Assembly (NCBI GenBank): GCA_963924555.1
Contig: OZ004595.1
Span: forward strand, 2,480,001-2,544,000
Direction of reading: 5' to 3'
DNA: 64,000 nucleotides
From: Crambe crambe
Lineage: Eukaryota > Porifera > Demospongiae > Poecilosclerida > Crambeidae
Shown: in pieces, positions 2,549 to 63,256 of the stretch
How the letters are laid out: the number at the start of each line of letters is the position of its first letter
Position numbering within the stretch: the first letter of the stretch is position 1
Program-made: the position numbers and the translations under genes
Notes under the pieces: model-generated
Seen by the model: only the letters and a program-made list of their open reading frames with translations
What the model was told of the DNA's origin: nothing
Databases searched by the model: none

Positions 2549-2553
2549 GATAA

Positions 2554-3460
2554 ACTAGCTAGTATAACCAGCTAATGATAAGTATGAGCCACCCAACATG
2601 ATATTTACAGTGAAAGAACCAGCAGAGGAACATATTCACTTCCCTGATAAGGCCACACAGACACAAGATTTTCAGATTTCCATGAGGGATCGAGGGAACT
2701 TGGTCAATATTCAATATCGTACTTTTGGTACTGTCAATGAATTTTAAGAATAAAATCTTACCAATCTTTCAAATTTTTGTCTGAAATCTGTTTTAATTGT
2801 TCTTGTCAGTGTAAAAGTTCTGCCAGTGATGTAGGGATTATAATTGAAGGCAGCATAATTTTGATGTTGTTCACAGAAACTGCTAGCTATAGTTAAAAGT
2901 ACAGGCTAACCCTACATGGCCTTTTTATTTAGCATTTTTCCCCTTGTTTGTTTACTTTTTATATGACCTCATTTTTATTTAGAGAGGCTAGCTAGCTAGT
3001 TAGCTAGGTACTGGTTGGCATGCACGTACGTGCATGTGATTGTGACAGATGCTCACACATGACAAATGATGTCATTAATTTCAAAATGGCTGACATAGTA
3101 TCGTTTGTAATGAAAAGTTGTTTGATGTGACTGATTATTTTGGAGGAAAACTGTGTGGATAACGATGGTAAAAGCACATTGTGTGATTAGCTATAACTGC
3201 ACAAGTTGATATGAATTTGATCGTCGTATGTGAAAGGATCATGGAGTTACAGCCGTCAAAGAAAATAATGATGATGAACGAATCAAAAATTTTAGATTTA
3301 GACCGCTGCTGGTGCAGATTGTTGACGCTGTTCTGGAGGAGTTTTAGCAGACATATCTTCTGCATTGTTTTTCAGATGTAAGAAGTTGAGCCTGTAGAAG
3401 AGATACAGAGAGTCCAGTTTGTAGTGTTCTAATGAGAGAAGCCATGCCCATTCCGTGCTA
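2554..3460. other. No gene seen
   Basis: AT-rich intergenic DNA without a supported gene. Short ORFs here have no recognisable domain and no paralogue in the window. Confidence 0.4.
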
Positions 3461-3462
3461 AC

Positions 3463-3493
3463 CCTACATAGAAAGTGCTACTGCACTCTCTGA
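3463..3493 (-). repeat. Terminal fragment of the TCAGAGAG composite repeat
   Basis: Read on the minus strand from 3493, TCAGAGAGTGCAGTAGCAC matches with one change the 5' end of the composite repeats at 56169, 56901 and 57141. As in those copies the end abuts a TA dinucleotide. Only about 30 bp are preserved. Confidence 0.5.
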
Positions 3494-3814
3494 TATTTCT
3501 TTACCCCTTGCGGCGCAGGAGTTTCTATTCAATGGTAGTATTCTCAAGTGTCTGGTTTTCCCTCAGTTGTAGAGTAGGAAGTGCTAGTCAGTAGTTTTCA
3601 ACTGTAGCTGGTGCAGCTACCTGCCTCATTAACTGATGAATTATTCATGAGCAAACACTGACCCGTCACCATAAGTGAGCAGGTTAAATTTCACTGTATG
3701 CACACCACATGCATGCACCCAACCACTCAGTCCTAATTTAAAGGTCTCGATTATTTTTAGGAACCTGCATGTGTAGCTACTATGCAACAATTATTGTTGC
3801 TTAATTTTACACAG

Positions 3815-54912: not shown

Positions 54913-55445
54913 CTCTGACTAGGAAGTGACTTTTACGAAATACGTAACTTTAGATTGCAGCATTGTTACACATGGCTATCTATCAGTCCTGTTTTCTAGA
55001 CCAAAAATCGGTGGTTATTCTTTCTCCCTCCCTCACTCCTCCCTCTTTCTGACCTATACCCCCTCAATACTCTATCCTTCCAAAATTCAACAAGGTTGAG
55101 AAGGTACGCATGTAGCTATAATCATGACTATACACATTGCCCCATTGCTAGCCTACTACAAGTCATTAGACATGATATTATCCAAGTTTCAACATTAATT
55201 GGCTCTGAAATTTAATATCAATTCTTATACATGATAATTATTTATGAAAGTGCTACAACTGTAAAAACAGAAGAGTTATAATATCCCAATAATTATGGAT
55301 ACTCTATAGGTGTGCAGTGTACAGTAAATTGCATCCATGCACACACTATAGGTGTGCAGTGTACACTTTCATTTTGCAGTCCTATAGCTTTGGCTACAGC
55401 TATATAGCTAGCCACTCAGCTTATAGCTATAGCTCTCAGTTAAAC

Positions 55446-56168
55446 ATGAAATTGCACTGCAGTGGAATAGCTTGACTTTTCATGGACTACTTACTTTGTT
55501 TAATGATATGCAGTTTCGTGCTTGTGAATGCTTCTATTAAAAAAGATGACTTGGAAGGAAATCGTAAAATTTGGTCACAGTCGATCCCTGATGTTACTGG
55601 TAAGTATCCTTGTGGAGTTGACAAGATTGGAGTAGTGAAGTGCGTAATTATCTTAAAATCCATGCTTGCTACTGCATTTATTGGGACCAGGACATTAACA
55701 AATCTATTGTTGGAAGTTGCATACTAGCTATCATGTTTTTATAGTTCATTTCATCTTATTGAGAGATACTCCATATCGAATGGAACATTGTTCAATGAAG
55801 CTGAATGCAGCCTATCAACTCCAAATGTGGATACACACCGTGAAGGACGTTTCTGTGGTCGATGCAAACCTCAATATGGACTGGCAGCATACTCCTATCA
55901 ATACACCATCTGTGTACCTTGCACAGACTATGGGTACAAAAACTGGCTGAAGTATTTTGCAGTGGCTTTGCTACCACTGACAGTCTTTTATTTCCTTGTG
56001 GTGATCCTGAGGATCAGTGTTGCATCGAGTCATCTCAATGGGATTGTATTTGCATTGCAGTGCTTATTATCACCACTCTTTCAACGAATATTTGATGGCT
56101 TGTTTAATGCAAGGTCTGATTCAGCCTTTTCTAGTGGCCATTATATATATCCTTCCTAAAATAGTCTA
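55446..56168 (+). pseudogene. Family M copy M12, 5' part
   Basis: The ATG at 55446 is followed by TGA at codon 10 (GGAATAGCTTGAC instead of GGAATGGCTTGCC). The same 10-bp deletion after GTGCG as in M9 is present at about 55643, so M9 and M12 share a broken ancestor. The ectodomain from IERYS through CVPC is retained here. The gene is cut at AATAGTCTA (56168) and continues at 62221. Confidence 0.88.
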
Positions 56169-56886
56169 TCAGAGAGTGCGGTAGCACTCTCTATGTAGGG
56201 ATGACTCGGACGGCCGCGCGCGCCGCCTATCGACTAATACTAAAGTGAAATTCTAGTTCCCCCACTTAGACCTAACAAAAGCTACTGTGAATGATTATCC
56301 AGCCTACTAGAGCCTACTACAATGTGCAGACCAAGTTTCAGGACCAGGGAGCTTACCGTTTCAGAAATACAGCAAGCAGGTAAATCGCTTCTTCTCTATT
56401 ATTCTTAGACAACCATATCTCTCGAACCACTCAAGCTACAGCTATGATTTCTGGATACATCAACTCCAAATTCTACGAACTACGATCTTTTCTACTCATT
56501 GATCCTCGAAAGAGTCGATAAAAAAGGAGACACTACGGAGCACAGCACTCGACGAATTCAATTAGGAAGCCATCTTTTCTACAAGTAAGGGGAAAAGCAT
56601 TTCGTGAAATGAAAAAAAGATGTAGGGATGACCACTGCTCAAAAAAGTAAGGAAACAAGAAGGATGGAAATGGGATCAATCTTTGTTCTGTATATCCAGC
56701 CAACAATCCCTACATATACGTACATTACTACACTATAATCTGAAGTTACCCGACGTATATGTAGGGATTGTTGGCTGGATATACAGAACAAAGATTGATC
56801 CCATTTCCATCCTTCTTGTTTCCTTACTTTTTTGAGCAGTGGTCATCCCTACATCTTTTTTTCATTTCACGAAATGCTTTTTCCCT
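56169..56886 (+). repeat. Composite repeat copy E1 (internally deleted)
   Basis: TCAGAGAG end with a 9-bp hairpin AGAGAGTGC/GCACTCTCT, a unit to about 56396, part of body R (56404-56583), then the 299-bp palindrome (56588-56886, loop inverted). Confidence 0.75.
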
Positions 56887-56900
56887 TATTATTATTATTA

Positions 56901-57140
56901 TCAGAGAGTGCGGTAGCACTCTCTATGTAGGGATGACTCGGACGGCCGCGCGCGCCGCCTATAGACTAATACAAAAGTGAAATTCCAGTTCCCCCACTTA
57001 GACCTAACAAAAGCTACTGTGAATGATTATCCAGCCTACTAGAGCCTACTACAATGTGCAGACCAAGTTTCAGGACCAGGGAGCTTACCGTTTCAGAAAT
57101 ACGGCAAGCAGGTAAATCGCTATATTCTTCTTCTTCTCTA
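56901..57140 (+). repeat. Composite repeat 5' unit, copy E2
   Basis: Only the TCAGAGAG unit of about 230 bp, followed by a CTT/ATT-rich run and the next copy. Confidence 0.8.
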
Positions 57141-58568
57141 TCAGAGAGTGCGGTAGCACTCTCTATGTAGGGATGACTCGGACGGCCGCGCGCGCCGCCT
57201 ATAGACTAATACAAAAGTGAAATTCCAGTTCCCCCACTTAGACCTAATAATAGCTACTGTGAATGATTATCCAGCCTACTAGAGCCTACTACAATGTGCA
57301 GACCAAGTTTCAGGACCAGGGAGCTTACCGTTTCAGAAATACGGCAAGCAGGTAAATCTCTATTATTATTCTTCTTCTCTATTATTATTCTTCTTATTAT
57401 TATTCTTCTTCTTAGACAACCATATCTCTCGAACCACTCAAGCTACAGCTATGATTTCTGGACAAATCCACTCCAAATTCTACGAACTACGATCTTTTCT
57501 ACTCGTTGATCCTCGAAAGAGTCGATGAAAAAGGAGACACTAAGGAGCACAGCACTCGACTAATTCAATTAGGAAGCCATCTTTTCTATAATACGCATGC
57601 GCATGTATTTGATATCCAATTATTCGAAATTATAATATTATTCAGCTGCCTCTAGCTAGCTAGCTAGCTAGGTATAGGTATATGTAGCTAGAATAATGAT
57701 GATGATGATGATAGACTACTGTATCGACTCGGGGATTTAGATTCAACAAGGTAGACTCTATTTCAGCATCTTCTACCTCCACCTTGACTCGTTGATAGTG
57801 ATTGGGCTGGTATGCTATTCAGGTGCGTAGCCAGGATTTTATCATAGGGGGTGCTTAGCAAGAAAAGAAATATCCGCGTGCTAATTGCATGTAGAAAAAT
57901 TTTATCTAGCCATGCCCACTTACCCATACCACCACACCTTTTGGATAAACCGCGCCCACTTGAAGTCAATTATCATTAGCCGACCTTTGAACTAATAGTA
58001 GCTATAGCAGAAGTAGTTAGCTCTAAAACAAGCGTAGTTTTTATATCAATTTGAGCTTGGTGGATCTGGGTACGTAAATTGGTAAATCTTGGTCTGTTAA
58101 TAATTAACTAGCTATTTACACATCCGGTGCAGCTCAAAGGGGGTGCTCGAGCCCCCTGAGCCCCTCCCTGGCTACGCACCTGCTATTGGAGAACTATTCT
58201 TCTTTCATCTGTCCCTGCATACACATAGAAGAATGAACTCTATACATAGCTAAAACCATAAAAGAGAGGAAATAAAGACCAGGAACAAGTAAGGGAAAAA
58301 GCATTTCGTGAAATGAAAAAAGATGTAGGGATGACCACTGCACAAAAAAGTAAGGAAACAAGAAGGATGGAATCTTTGTTCTGTATATCCAGCCAACAAT
58401 CCCTACATGTACGTACATTACTACACTATAATCTGAAGCTACCCGACGTATATGTAGGGATTGTTGGCTGGATATACAGAACAAAGATTTCATCCTTCTT
58501 GTTTCCTTACTTTTTTGTGCAGTGGTCATCCCTACATCTTTTTTCATTTCACGAAATGCTTTTTCCCT
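57141..58568 (+). repeat. Composite repeat, most complete copy E3
   Basis: Order: TCAGAGAG unit, (ATT/CTT)n, body R, terminal palindrome 58292-58568 (loop inverted). R is interrupted by the hAT-like element 57820-58182. Without that, the copy is about 1.06 kb. No ORF of note. Confidence 0.78.
57820..58182. mobile_element. Non-autonomous DNA transposon, 5-bp TSD, empty site known
   Basis: CAGGTGCGTAGCCAGG and CCTGGCTACGCACCTG are inverted ends. CTATT is duplicated at 57815-57819 and 58183-58187. The uninterrupted sequence GGTATGCTATTGGAGAAC occurs at about 33459 and 39068 in other copies of body R, which confirms boundaries and duplication. Probably hAT-like. Confidence 0.9.
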
Positions 58569-58591
58569 TACTTGTTATTATTATTATTATT

Positions 58592-59391
58592 ATTATTCTT
58601 AGACAACCATATCTCTCGAACCACTCAAGCTACAGCCATGATTTCTGGACAAATCCACTCCAAATTCTACGAACTACGATCTTTTCTACTCGTTGATCCT
58701 CGAAAAGAGTCGATGAAAAAGGAGACACTATGGAGCACAGCACTCGACTAATTCAATTAGGAAGCCATCTTTTCTATAATACGCATGTGCATGTATTTGA
58801 ATATCCAATTATTCGAAATCATAATATTACTCAGCTGTCTCTAGCTAGCTCTAGCTAGCTGATGATAGACTACTGTATCGATTCGGGGATTTAGATTCAC
58901 CACGGTAGACTCTATTTCAGCATCTTCGACCTCCAAGTATGGCTCAACAACACAACACCTTGACTCGATAAATGATTGGGCTGATATGCTATTGGAGAAC
59001 TTCTTTCATCTGTCCCTGCATACACATAGAAGAATGAACTCTAATCATAGCTAAAACCATAAAAGAGAGGAAAAAAGACCAGGAACAAGTAAGGGAAAAA
59101 GCATTTCGTGAAAATGAAAAAAAGATGTAGGGATGACCACTGCTCAAAAAAGTAAGGAAACAAGAAGGATGGAAATGGGATCAATCTTTGTTCTGTATAT
59201 CCAGCCAACAATCCCTACATATATGTCGGGTAACTTCAGATTATAGTGTAGTAATGTGTGTATATGTAGGGATTGTTGGCTGGATATACAGAACAAAGAT
59301 TGATCCCATTTCCATCCTTCTTGTTTCCTTATTTTTTTGAGCAGTGGTCATCCCTACATCTTTTTTTCATTTCACGAAATGCTTTTTCCCT
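58592..59391 (+). repeat. Composite repeat copy E4 (lacks 5' unit)
   Basis: Body R from TCTTAGACAACC to the palindrome at 59092-59391, loop in the 33566 orientation. Confidence 0.78.
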
Positions 59392-59395
59392 TATT

Positions 59396-59830
59396 ATAGA
59401 AAAGATGGCTTCCTAATTGAATTCGTCGAGTGCTGCGCTCCATAGTGTCTCCTTTTTCATCGACTCTTTCGAGGATCAACGAGTAGAAAAGATCGTAGTT
59501 GGTAGAATTTGGAGTAGATTTGTCCAGAAATCATGGCTGTAGCTTGAGTGGTTCGAGAGATATGGTTGTCTAAGAAGAAGAATAATAATAATAGAGAAGA
59601 AGAAGAAGAATATAGCGATTTACCTGCTTGCCGTATTTCTGAAACGGTAAGCTCCCTGGTCCTGAAACTTGGTCTGCACATTGTAGTAGGCTCTAGTAGG
59701 CTGGATAATCATTCACAGTAGGTCTAAGTGGGAGAACTAGAATTTCACTTTAGTATTAGTCTATAGGCGGCGCGCGCGGCCGTCCGAGTCATCCCTACAT
59801 ACATATAGAGAGTGCTACCGCACTCTCTGA
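59396..59830 (-). repeat. Composite repeat copy E5 (inverted, partial)
   Basis: Minus-strand copy starting TCAGAGAGTGCGGTAGCAC at 59830, with its 5' unit and the start of body R up to about 59396. It lacks the palindrome and abuts E4 head to tail in opposite orientation. Confidence 0.75.
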
Positions 59831-59929
59831 TAATACCCATGTGCATATCCAATTATTCGAAATTATAATAGTCTCTAACTAGCTAGATGATGATTAGCTT
59901 CGTCCCCAGGGGCCTGGGAACGAGGCTAG

Positions 59930-60241
59930 ATGATGATAGACTACTGTATCTACTCGGGGATTTAGATTCACCACGGTAGACCATCTTCGACCTCCAAGTA
60001 CACAACACCTTGATTCGTTGATAATGATGGCTGGTATGCTGGAGAACTATTTTTTCATCTGTCCCTGCATAGCTAGCTAGCTCTAGACAATGATGATAGA
60101 CTACTGCATCGACTCGGGGATTTAGATTCACGATGGTAGACTCTATTTCAACATCTTTCTTCGACCTCCAAGTATAGCTCAACAATGACACAGCACCTTG
60201 ACTCGTGGGCTGGTGTGCTATTGGAGAACTATTCTTCTTTC
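59930..60241 (+). repeat. Two partial copies of body R
   Basis: GATGATAGACTACTGTATC... (59930-60075) and again from 60088 to 60241, ending CTTCTTTCATCT. The R sequence that should follow reappears only at about 61876 (ACATAGCTAAAACCATAAA). Confidence 0.75.
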
Positions 60242-60341
60242 ATCTAGTCACACTTTACAGAGCCACAGTTTAGAGAGCCTATCTTGAAATAATATCGATG
60301 TTACAGTTGTCATAACTATTCCGTTTCAATAATAATTATAG

Positions 60342-60488
60342 GCCAGAGTGTTTCGTGGTGTGTGAGAGGGAGAAATACCAGCAACTCTCGGAAGTTACAG
60401 GCTCTTGTTTTAAGGTGGTTTCTGCACGTGAAGAACTTAGAGGCTTCAAAATTGCAGTGATCAAGGAGTGGGTTTTGAACAAAGCCAG
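60342..60488 (+). CDS. Possible orphan internal exon
   Basis: A 147-bp open segment lies between an acceptor-like AATAATTATAG (to 60341) and a donor GCCAG-GTAAG at 60489. Both junctions are in phase 1 after the first base, so the exon is symmetric. It codes 48 full residues beginning PECFVVCEREKYQQLSEV and ending KIAVIKEWVLNK. I do not recognise the protein. No neighbouring exon was found. It lies opposite the metallothionein-like gene's 3' side inside the insertion, which suggests a captured gene fragment. Confidence 0.35.
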
Positions 60489-60610
60489 GTAAGAAAATAA
60501 TTGAATGCACTATGCACACCACTGAACATAACATACAATGGTAGATAATAAATGCAATAAAAAGAATGCAACACTTGGTAACAGGTTTAAAATGTTCAAT
60601 TTCTGTTGGT

Positions 60611-61426
60611 TTATGAGCAACATTTGCCAGTAGCAGGACAGCATTCTGCAGGACACTTGCACTCTGGTCCACAACATTTGCCACCAGGAGGACAGCAATC
60701 TGCAGGACACTTGCACTCTGGTCCACAACATTTGCCACCGGAAGGACAGCAATCCCCACTGCAATCTGCAGGACACTTGCAATCTGGTCCACAATTACAG
60801 TTCTCTAATAATAGGGAGAGAGAAAAATTTTTTAAGGGAGGTAACTATGGCAACTACAGTCATGTCCCCGGGGGGGCCCCATGCTTGTTGCCAGGAGGTA
60901 ACTATGGCAACTACAGTCGATGTCCCATGCTCGTGGCACTAGTAACCAGGAGGTACTATGGCAACTAGTTTCCTATTTTGCAGGGAGGTTTCTGTTAGCC
61001 CTTACTGGATAAGTTACACTGCATAATGAAACTGAGTGAACTCGTGGCAAAAGACGGGCTAAAAAGTAAAAACCACACCAAAGATCCCTAGTGAACTACA
61101 AATAGAACCAAGACAGGTGACAAGGGTACTTACTGCATTTGGTGCAGGCATTGGCACAGCAATTGCTTGGACACTTGCACTTTGACTTGTCTGTACACTT
61201 GCACGATTCGGGAGTCCCATCACATCCTTGGCAGACACAGGGACAGCATCCATTGGGGCCTCCTTTGCAGGTATCACCACACTGACATTTGTCACCACAG
61301 CTGCAGTTTCCACCTAGATAAACAAATGAAAAAACAGCTAGCTAGTTTTTAAGCAGCCTGGGTAACTAGCCATAGAGAGAGTAGCTTACCACAAGCAGGG
61401 TTCTTGCAAGCACCAGTGTCAGACAT
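60611..61426 (-). CDS. Metallothionein-like Cys-rich protein, three exons
   Basis: Exons on the minus strand are 61426-61390 (37 nt), 61313-61134 (180 nt) and 60804-60611 (194 nt), joined at GT-AG borders. Together they make 411 nt, an exact frame of 136 residues plus stop. The start is MSDTGACKNPACG. Forty-one of 136 residues are Cys (30%), in CXC, CC and CXXC groups, with no aromatic residues, as expected of a cytosolic metallothionein binding Zn, Cd or Cu through thiolates. It is longer than the usual 60-75 residues. The third exon repeats an 18-residue module (CCGPECKCPADCCPPGGK and variants), which may explain the length. The gene lies within the 6-kb repeat insertion. A TATACAA at 61547-61541 and MRE-like heptamers lie upstream. 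An unrelated Cys-rich protein is possible but less likely. Confidence 0.85.
60836..60970. repeat. Tandem repeat with X-box-like palindromes in intron 2
   Basis: GTAACTATGGCAAC occurs at 60841-60854 and 60898-60911, and a form short by one base at 60953-60965. The first two lie in a 57-bp direct repeat with GGAG before and TACAGTC after. The palindrome differs at one position from the RFX/X-box consensus GTNRCCATRGNAAC. Confidence 0.6.
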
Positions 61427-61540
61427 ATTGATATCTATAGTTCAGTTAATTTGAAGTTTCGAAGAAAAGAAAGTCTTTGCGGTTAGTTGAAGTCCTCTTG
61501 CTCTCGAGAATGTGATTTGAATGGTCTCTTTCTTCTCCTT

Positions 61541-61547
61541 TTGTATA
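61541..61547 (-). promoter_or_regulatory. TATA-like box of the metallothionein-like gene
   Basis: TATACAA on the minus strand, 115 bp before the ATG and about 45 bp downstream of the nearest MRE-like heptamer. Spacing is plausible for a core promoter; no transcript evidence. Confidence 0.35.
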
Positions 61548-61590
61548 CTGGGTTTACTCGATCGTGGCGCGACGCCTCACTTTTGGTGCC

Positions 61591-61817
61591 GTGTGCAATC
61601 ATTTCGTGTGCAAGTTTTGTATTTCGCGCGCTGGCCGTGTGCAAATTCTGGGCGGAGCTAGTCGCCGAGCGCATGCGTACTAGCTGCAAAAGTATCGTGT
61701 GCAAAATTATCGTGGGTGGAGCTAGCTAGCTTAGCTCTAGTTCCGTGTCGTGTGCATGTATAACACACAGTCATATCGTGCATGTGCAATTGTGCACCAG
61801 CTCTAGTTCTGTGTGCA
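61591..61817 (-). promoter_or_regulatory. Cluster of metal-response-element-like heptamers
   Basis: On the gene strand TGCACAC, which fits the MRE core TGCRCNC, occurs six times, always in the same orientation: complement of 61591-61597, 61606-61612, 61637-61643, 61697-61703, 61750-61756, 61811-61817. A seventh fit, TGCGCTC, is at 61667-61673. Several extend to TTGCACACG, and the one at 61637 continues GGCC as in the animal MTF-1 consensus. They lie 165-390 bp upstream of the start codon. Confidence 0.65.
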
Positions 61818-61875
61818 AAACCACACAATAGTACCAGACTACCAGTGCCAGAATACATAGGCGTAGGAGAGGGGT

Positions 61876-62218
61876 ACATAGCTAAAACCATAAAAGAGAG
61901 GAAAGAGAGGAAAAAAGACCAGGAACAAGTAAGGGAAAAATCATTTCTTGAAATGAAAAAAGATGTAGGGATGACCACTGCTCAAAAAAGTAAGGAAACA
62001 AGAAGGGTGGAAATGGGATCAATCTTTGTTCTGTATATCCAACCAACGATCCCTACATATACGTTGGGTAGCTTCAGATTATAGTGTAGTAATGTATGTA
62101 TATGTAGGGATTGTTGGCTGGATATACAGAACAAAGATTGATCCCTTCTTGTTTCCTTACTTTTTTGAGCAGTGGTCATCCCTACATCTTTTTTCATTTC
62201 AAGAAATGATTTTTCCCT
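61876..62218 (+). repeat. Right end of a composite repeat with palindrome
   Basis: R resumes with ACATAGCTAAAACC and passes into the palindromic MITE 61932-62218, which forms the right end of the insertion in M12. Substitutions (ATCATTTCTTGAAATG) distinguish it from other copies. Confidence 0.8.
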
Positions 62219-62220
62219 TA

Positions 62221-63256
62221 TTCTATATTTAGTGTAGTAAATTTAGATTTCTTTCGTGGTGTGTATCCTAGCTTCTGTCTCCATCCACAATTGAATATTA
62301 TCCACATTCTTTTTCTGGACTATATAGTAGCCTTGTTAATCTTCATCACTTATGTATGACAGAAATTATCATTGCCTCAAATTGGCATGGAAGCCTTTCA
62401 AGTATCTTCTCACATATTACCAAAGGCAGTGGAATATACGAATGTCCCTCATCGAAATATTCGCCACTTTCATCCTGCTTTCCAGCACTAAGATACTATC
62501 TGTTTCTTTTGTTTCACTATAGCCTATGATGAGATGAGGACAGAGATCAAGAAGAAATTCCTATTCTATGATGCCAATATTGAGTATTTTGGATATGATC
62601 ATCTTCCATTTGCTGTGCTTGCATTATTGATTGGCTTTGTATTCGTGTTTCTCCCTTTCCTCTTACTAGTCCTCTACCCTTGTCGCTGCTTCCAGAGATG
62701 TCTGAACTGCTTGGGGTGGAGATGCCAGGCACTACATATCTTCATGGATGCCTTCCAAGGTAGCTACAAGATAGAGCCTTATGACCTGAGGTACTTCTCA
62801 GCATTCTACCTCCTTTTGCGTTTCTTATTCCTTATAATAACTGAACTCATGCTCTCTTTCTTTGTGATTCCCACACTAGCTTTCACTATGCTATTAAGTG
62901 CTTTTATATTTATAATATTTCAGCCATACAAGAAAACTTCTCAGAACAGGTTGGATATTACTTTCATGCTTTTGGTCACATTATTTTCGTGGCATTCACA
63001 GCTGAGATATTAGCCTCATACCTTGATACTTGCTGGCTAGCTGCAGCAGGAGCTCTTTTGATTGTTTCCGTAACGCTTATCATCCTCTACCTCATTTTAA
63101 TGTTTGCTTGGCTTATATTCCATCGAATACTTAAAAAGGTATTCCTGAAGATAATGAATTGTAGATCATCAGATTATCGGCAAGATCCTTCGAAGCATTA
63201 GAGAGAAGCGAGAGGCAAATCATTTCACTACATTACCCTCCTCTGCTGAGATCATA
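62221..63256 (+). pseudogene. Family M copy M12, 3' part
   Basis: Resumes the family sequence at TTCTATATTTAGTGTAGTAA and runs to the normal stop region at 63254-63256. Deletions occur at about 62335 (part of ALYPFILIF), 62355 and 62513, and a 1-2-bp loss at about 62986, so no long frame survives except 62534-63013. The stretch TTTATAATATTTCAG at 62910 is the unbroken counterpart of the M3 scar. Confidence 0.87.

Follow-up and report, generated by a model that had tools for sequence, protein, structure and literature searches.

A Helitron-like repeat in the sponge Crambe crambe holds an intact metallothionein-like gene with a near-identical likely donor on another contig

Introduction

How does a complete gene, with its introns and upstream sequence, come to lie inside a transposable element that itself interrupts another gene? 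The question is raised by a 64,000-nucleotide stretch of the Crambe crambe genome (hereafter the window; C18:2,480,001-2,544,000 in an assembly of 143 Mb and 119 contigs), where a preliminary description had placed a metallothionein-like gene within a repeat element (R) that splits a member of a local gene family (family M). Helitron cargo often consists of gene fragments, with an origin and direction that are hard to prove, and intact captured genes are also known from maize Helitrons. That Helitrons capture host sequence is established, as described in PMC4778049 and PMC4289320. Among the open-access papers listed there was no report of a Helitron-borne metallothionein, and we found no open-access paper on Helitron gene capture in a sponge.

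Results

The insertion sits at an A|T site of a family M gene copy

When the 6,052-bp insertion is removed, the two halves of the interrupted family M copy (M12) join cleanly, as had been described: the rejoined flanks, aligned as an empty site with the uninterrupted paralogue near 43.1 kb, meet exactly (AATAGTCTA/TTCTATATT) and show 85 substitutions in 2,789 aligned bases (3.05%). M12 (window 55437-63242) also has frameshifts beyond the insertion when compared with an intact family member. Family M itself is an array of multi-pass-like proteins (window 24713-54392) that includes two 605-aa frames (41518-39704 and 35909-34095) which are 100% identical, the others being 84-97% alike. A partial family M protein matched no Pfam family at E-values up to 0.01.

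The TA that had been read as duplicated at this site is better explained by an insertion that separated A from T and duplicated nothing. Among the flanks counted, A precedes the 5' TC of the repeat in 41/41 distinct flanks (TA in 28 and AA in 13), a count that takes only matches starting with TC, drops reverse matches of the palindromic hairpin and includes the window copies. We therefore place the insertion at A|T without a target duplication, as all of these flanks end in A and many of them in AA. A cut-and-paste element that duplicates its TA target was rejected on account of the same AA flanks and because elements with the same ends encode a Rep-helicase. At the 3' end, T follows CTTA in 24/24 cases and CTTG in 16/16, with four internal palindrome arms set aside, diverged ends missed by the fixed motifs, and at least one of the 16 CTTG ends (L038, minus strand) resembling an internal arm. 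Repeat counts are lower bounds, as 40 of 2,138, 40 of 1,115 and 40 of 1,125 candidates were scored.

The repeat has Helitron2-like ends and autonomous relatives

The repeat has the 5' TC and the A/T insertion without target duplication of canonical Helitrons, and ends in CTTA or CTTG rather than in the canonical 3' CTRR. The 13-bp sequence ATGTAGGGATGAC lies near both ends and constitutes an asymmetric terminal inverted repeat, the Helitron2 feature, in both the short and the autonomous elements. This terminal inverted repeat and a strong 5' hairpin (0/200 shuffles equal it) resemble those of Helitron2 as described in PMC5148889 and PMC4067079. The 3' hairpin is weak: CATTTC..GAAATG, a short palindrome placed some 11 bp before the end as in canonical Helitrons, is equalled in folding by 7/200 and 12/200 shuffles. 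The features of Helentrons were not found: insertion is at A|T rather than T|T, and the Rep-helicase protein pieces searched, which exclude the N-terminal part before L023, contained no match to an endonuclease model.

The Helitron_like_N model (PF14214) has 67 matches in the genome, 21 of them inside open frames of more than 2,000 aa. Two autonomous elements, on contigs C10 and C11, share 99.8% identity over 1,978 bp on the 5' side and 99.65% over 3,712 bp on the 3' side, and the C10 copy encodes Helitron_like_N, PIF1 and OTU domains in an open frame of 2,323 aa. Their 5' terminus matches that of the repeat over 39 bp at 94.9%, and their 3' termini match it with GTCATCCCTACATC followed by TTTTTCCCTTACTTG|T. 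On the basis of these shared termini and of the near-identical autonomous copies, the repeat is most readily interpreted as a Helitron that is non-autonomous, has Helitron2-like ends and is related to a recently active family. The common ends also suggest that the Rep-helicase proteins may move the repeat. The 3'-side inverted arms of the autonomous elements at L059 and L060 (about 2550-3720) lie some 0.8-1.0 kb apart, and the short copies are similar on a smaller scale.

The insert is a nest of element copies broken by a 1,629-bp block

The insert had been taken for one repeat body. Mapping to a single clean 1,065-bp copy, which supplies the R coordinates, with exact ends taken from the window sequence, instead resolved it into nested copies (Table 1). 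R0 (56169-56581 and 59831-62220) encloses R1, which is on the minus strand and is without its middle; R1 encloses E2, and E2 encloses E3. R1, then E2, then E3 would thus have inserted into R0. Element copies enter one another, often at internal TTA/TTC tracts, and the nest here is four deep; similar nests occur in several sampled loci.

Table 1. Features of the insertion, in window coordinates.
Feature	Position	Strand	Description
Whole insertion	56169..62220	+	After A (56168) and before T (62221) of the family M copy; Helitron ends 5' TC and 3' CTTA; from empty-site alignment and end rules of other copies
Outer Helitron R0, 5' part	56169..56581	+	R 1-465 of the 1,065-bp copy
Nested R1, 3' part	56582..56900	-	Ends CTTG
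Nested E2, 5' part	56901..57140	+	From mapping
Nested E3	57141..58574	+	Ends CTTACTTG; further insert at about 57820-58180
Nested E2, 3' part	58575..59393	+	Ends CTTA
Nested R1, 5' part	59394..59830	-	From mapping
R0, middle part	59831..60070	+	R 486-717; ends in step back
R0, repeated middle piece	60071..60245	+	About R 569-706; left of captured block; 98.3% identical to C11 copy
Captured block, 1,629 bp	60246..61874	.	Copy of C8:7,524,695-7,526,318; replaces 32 bp of R
147-bp exon of VPS9-domain gene	60342..60488	+	Both splice sites kept
Metallothionein-like gene, exon 3	60611..60804	-	Stop; gene model
Metallothionein-like gene, exon 2	61134..61313	-	Gene model
Metallothionein-like gene, exon 1	61390..61426	-	Start codon; gene model
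Upstream region	61428..61872	-	Seven MRE-like TGCRCNC sites; motif count
MITE, first 20 bp	61855..61874	+	Complete at C8
R0, 3' part	61875..62220	+	Palindromic region; CTTA end

Within R0 the repeat breaks off at 60245 and continues from 61875, which agrees with the earlier observation that about 1.63 kb stands in place of a short stretch of the repeat; the 33 bp given for that stretch is the same gap counted from ACATAG, and is 32 bp here. At other loci, 45/61 anchor pairs have exactly 32 bp in this interval, another 15 have 0-37 bp and one has 479 bp, the loci possibly overlapping and seven window-derived loci having been left out beforehand. The extra sequence in the 479-bp case (L050) is edged by a repeat of about 6 bp. 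The left join of the block has 2 bp in common (CT), by itself little more than chance, and the right join has none. The R0 pieces to the left and right of the block match one and the same C11 copy at 98.3% and 98.0% (substitutions), and so were probably contiguous once. R0 pieces diverge by 1.4-3.4% from the nearest relative in the comparison, a distance that gives no insertion date relative to the block.

The block contains an intact metallothionein-like gene

The three Cys-rich exons noted in the preliminary description are present on the minus strand, where they form one continuous reading frame. The predicted protein is small (136 aa), rich in Cys (41 residues) and non-aromatic, with no F, W, Y or H, as are metallothioneins. 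Because it matched no Pfam family at E-values up to 0.01, and metallothioneins are short and divergent, we use only the label "metallothionein-like". The gene model is intact, and its coding region differs from that of the near-identical C8 locus (below) at 2/411 bases, with one amino acid change and both frames open. The earlier account of the block as three exons with their introns is right as far as it goes, and overlooked an additional exon on the plus strand that belongs to a VPS9-domain gene (Table 1). This exon is a multiple of three in length and lies on the strand of M12, so that a read-through transcript could splice it in.

The reported cluster of MRE-like sites was recovered: the upstream region has six TGCACAC and one TGCGCTC, all in gene sense, giving seven TGCRCNC matches against 0.35 expected from the whole-window density (Poisson 9e-8). 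We take TGCRCNC to be the consensus of the metal-response element. The same region at C8 has seven TGCRCNC in sense and one in antisense, with none in the 381 bp beyond the captured edge, and a paralogue at C8:1.96 Mb has three per strand. The gene is predicted to be expressed and to respond to metal.

A near-identical locus on contig C8 is the likely donor

A DNA search of the genome returned the window, the near-identical segment C8:7,524,695-7,526,318 and the paralogue at C8:1.96 Mb, which is 82% identical (3/3 candidates scored), and a protein search returned the same three metallothionein-like loci (5/5 candidates). The search that had been proposed for a donor outside repeats led to a likely one, the near-identical C8 locus, which is not in this repeat; the accompanying search for further copies of R with the Cys-rich exons yielded only the window element, and neither the DNA nor the protein search of the genome revealed another gene-bearing element. 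The block and the C8 segment differ by 19 substitutions in 1,606 bases (1.18%) and 8 gaps, or by 25 substitutions and 6 indels with another aligner.

The C8 locus sits within the VPS9-domain gene (Pfam E = 2.1e-15), outside the Helitron repeat. The exons of this gene, as modelled, extend to either side of the copied segment, and the metallothionein-like gene adjoins the 147-bp exon on the opposite strand. The MITE (31/31 candidate places of its family scored, C8 included) is whole at C8. C8 thus looks like the donor, and the direction from C8 to the window follows from the cut MITE (20 bp) and the single exon of the C8 host gene that the window contains. The substitutions give no direction because they are evenly spread: with the C8:1.96-Mb paralogue as outgroup, three changes fall on the C8 side and two on the window side, with one unresolved, in 496 columns.

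Discussion

It is well supported by these sequence comparisons that the gene inside the transposable element is complete, retains its introns and the MRE-like sites upstream of it, and was copied from C8. Retroposition of the gene was ruled out because introns and upstream sequence are retained. The preliminary description had proposed that an element captured the whole gene with its upstream region and carried it to a new place. The capture is well supported; as to the carriage, the searches found a single gene-bearing element, and a copying event into an element that was already in place would explain this no less well than transport.

Our preferred reading, in which we have moderate confidence, is that a non-autonomous Helitron (R0), lying in the family M copy, took up the C8 segment through template-switch gap filling. 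After a break or stalled fork within R0, synthesis would have stepped back inside Helitron sequence, jumped to the C8 copy and then come back to R0, so that the gap was filled. The internal breakpoints, the 32-bp loss, the single gene-bearing element and the duplicated R 569-706 piece by the left join lead us to favour such repair, and breakpoints inside the element, missing element sequence and an identified donor are the marks by which gap filling was judged. Most single-copy captures by animal TIR transposons are attributed to gap filling in PMC8277862, with a median microhomology of 2 bp and breakpoints skewed inward. Against gap filling here, that account concerns TIR elements and reports a bias towards nearby donors, whereas donor and target in our case are on different contigs. 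The step at 60070/60071, which among the 40 of 1,125 candidates scored is spanned by more than 15 bases in the window alone (three matches start 15 bases before it), may predate the capture and have nothing to do with it.

The main alternative is that a Helitron captured the gene elsewhere or during transposition, and that R0 and the gene then entered the family M gene as a unit. The regular Helitron ends and A|T site of the outer insertion agree with this, as do the autonomous elements with the same termini that are present in near-identical copies, and capture during transposition has been demonstrated in cell culture (PMC4778049). The route described there is reading past the 3' end, which leaves cargo at that end of the element. 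The internal position of the block in our case disfavours 3' read-through, and the genome searches found no second element bearing the gene. We regard this history as possible, at clearly lower probability than gap filling of a resident R0. An assembly error, in which a piece of the C8 locus or its other allele was misjoined into C18, is very unlikely: the joins are known here from the assembly alone and 1.2% divergence could be allelic, but both joins lie within a single element, from which exactly 32 bp are gone, the outer insertion has clean edges down to the base, and the block differs from C8 by indels as well as substitutions. Largely excluded is a history in which the window copy is ancestral and C8 the recipient, or in which both derive from a third locus. 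The even distribution of substitutions would allow it; the window, however, has a fragment of the MITE and one exon of a gene that extends both ways at C8, and the genome searches found no third near-identical copy.

Helitron gene capture is a known process. The present case is a good example of it, as the multi-exon gene is intact, has its upstream sites and can be traced to a donor, and the evidence for donor and direction is unusually complete. Because a single assembly supplies the donor, the direction, the two breakpoints and an autonomous partner, the way in which an element gains a gene becomes directly testable. The genome searches found three metallothionein-like loci, of which the cargo is one, and the copy number of metallothionein-type genes is plausibly under selection. 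A more far-reaching scenario, which we think improbable, is that a Helitron family with intact autonomous members bears a complete metal-inducible metallothionein gene of which the new copy is expressed and could move again, and that rolling-circle elements would in this way raise metallothionein dosage in metal-stressed populations.

Comparison with known systems

In its ends the repeat is like the Helitron2-type FoHeli elements of Fusarium as described in PMC5148889, with a 5' TCAG, a 5' hairpin, an asymmetric terminal inverted repeat, a Rep-helicase partner and an AT-rich insertion site. It differs from FoHeli1/2, for which the same source gives a 3' ATTTT, in ending with CTTA or CTTACTTG and in having an animal-type partner with OTU. 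As a Helitron with host-derived regulatory or coding sequence, the window element resembles the captured NUBPL promoter of bats (PMC4778049) and the HELPO genes of Pleurotus (PMC4289320). Those captures, as presented in these sources, were amplified or are of unknown origin, whereas here there is one copy, a donor in the same assembly and an intact intron-containing gene model. The animal single-copy Pack-TIR elements of PMC8277862 differ in being TIR transposons rather than Helitrons, and the donor here is on another contig. The window element nevertheless has in common with them, as they are described there, a single copy, internal breakpoints, short microhomology and filler from the parental locus.
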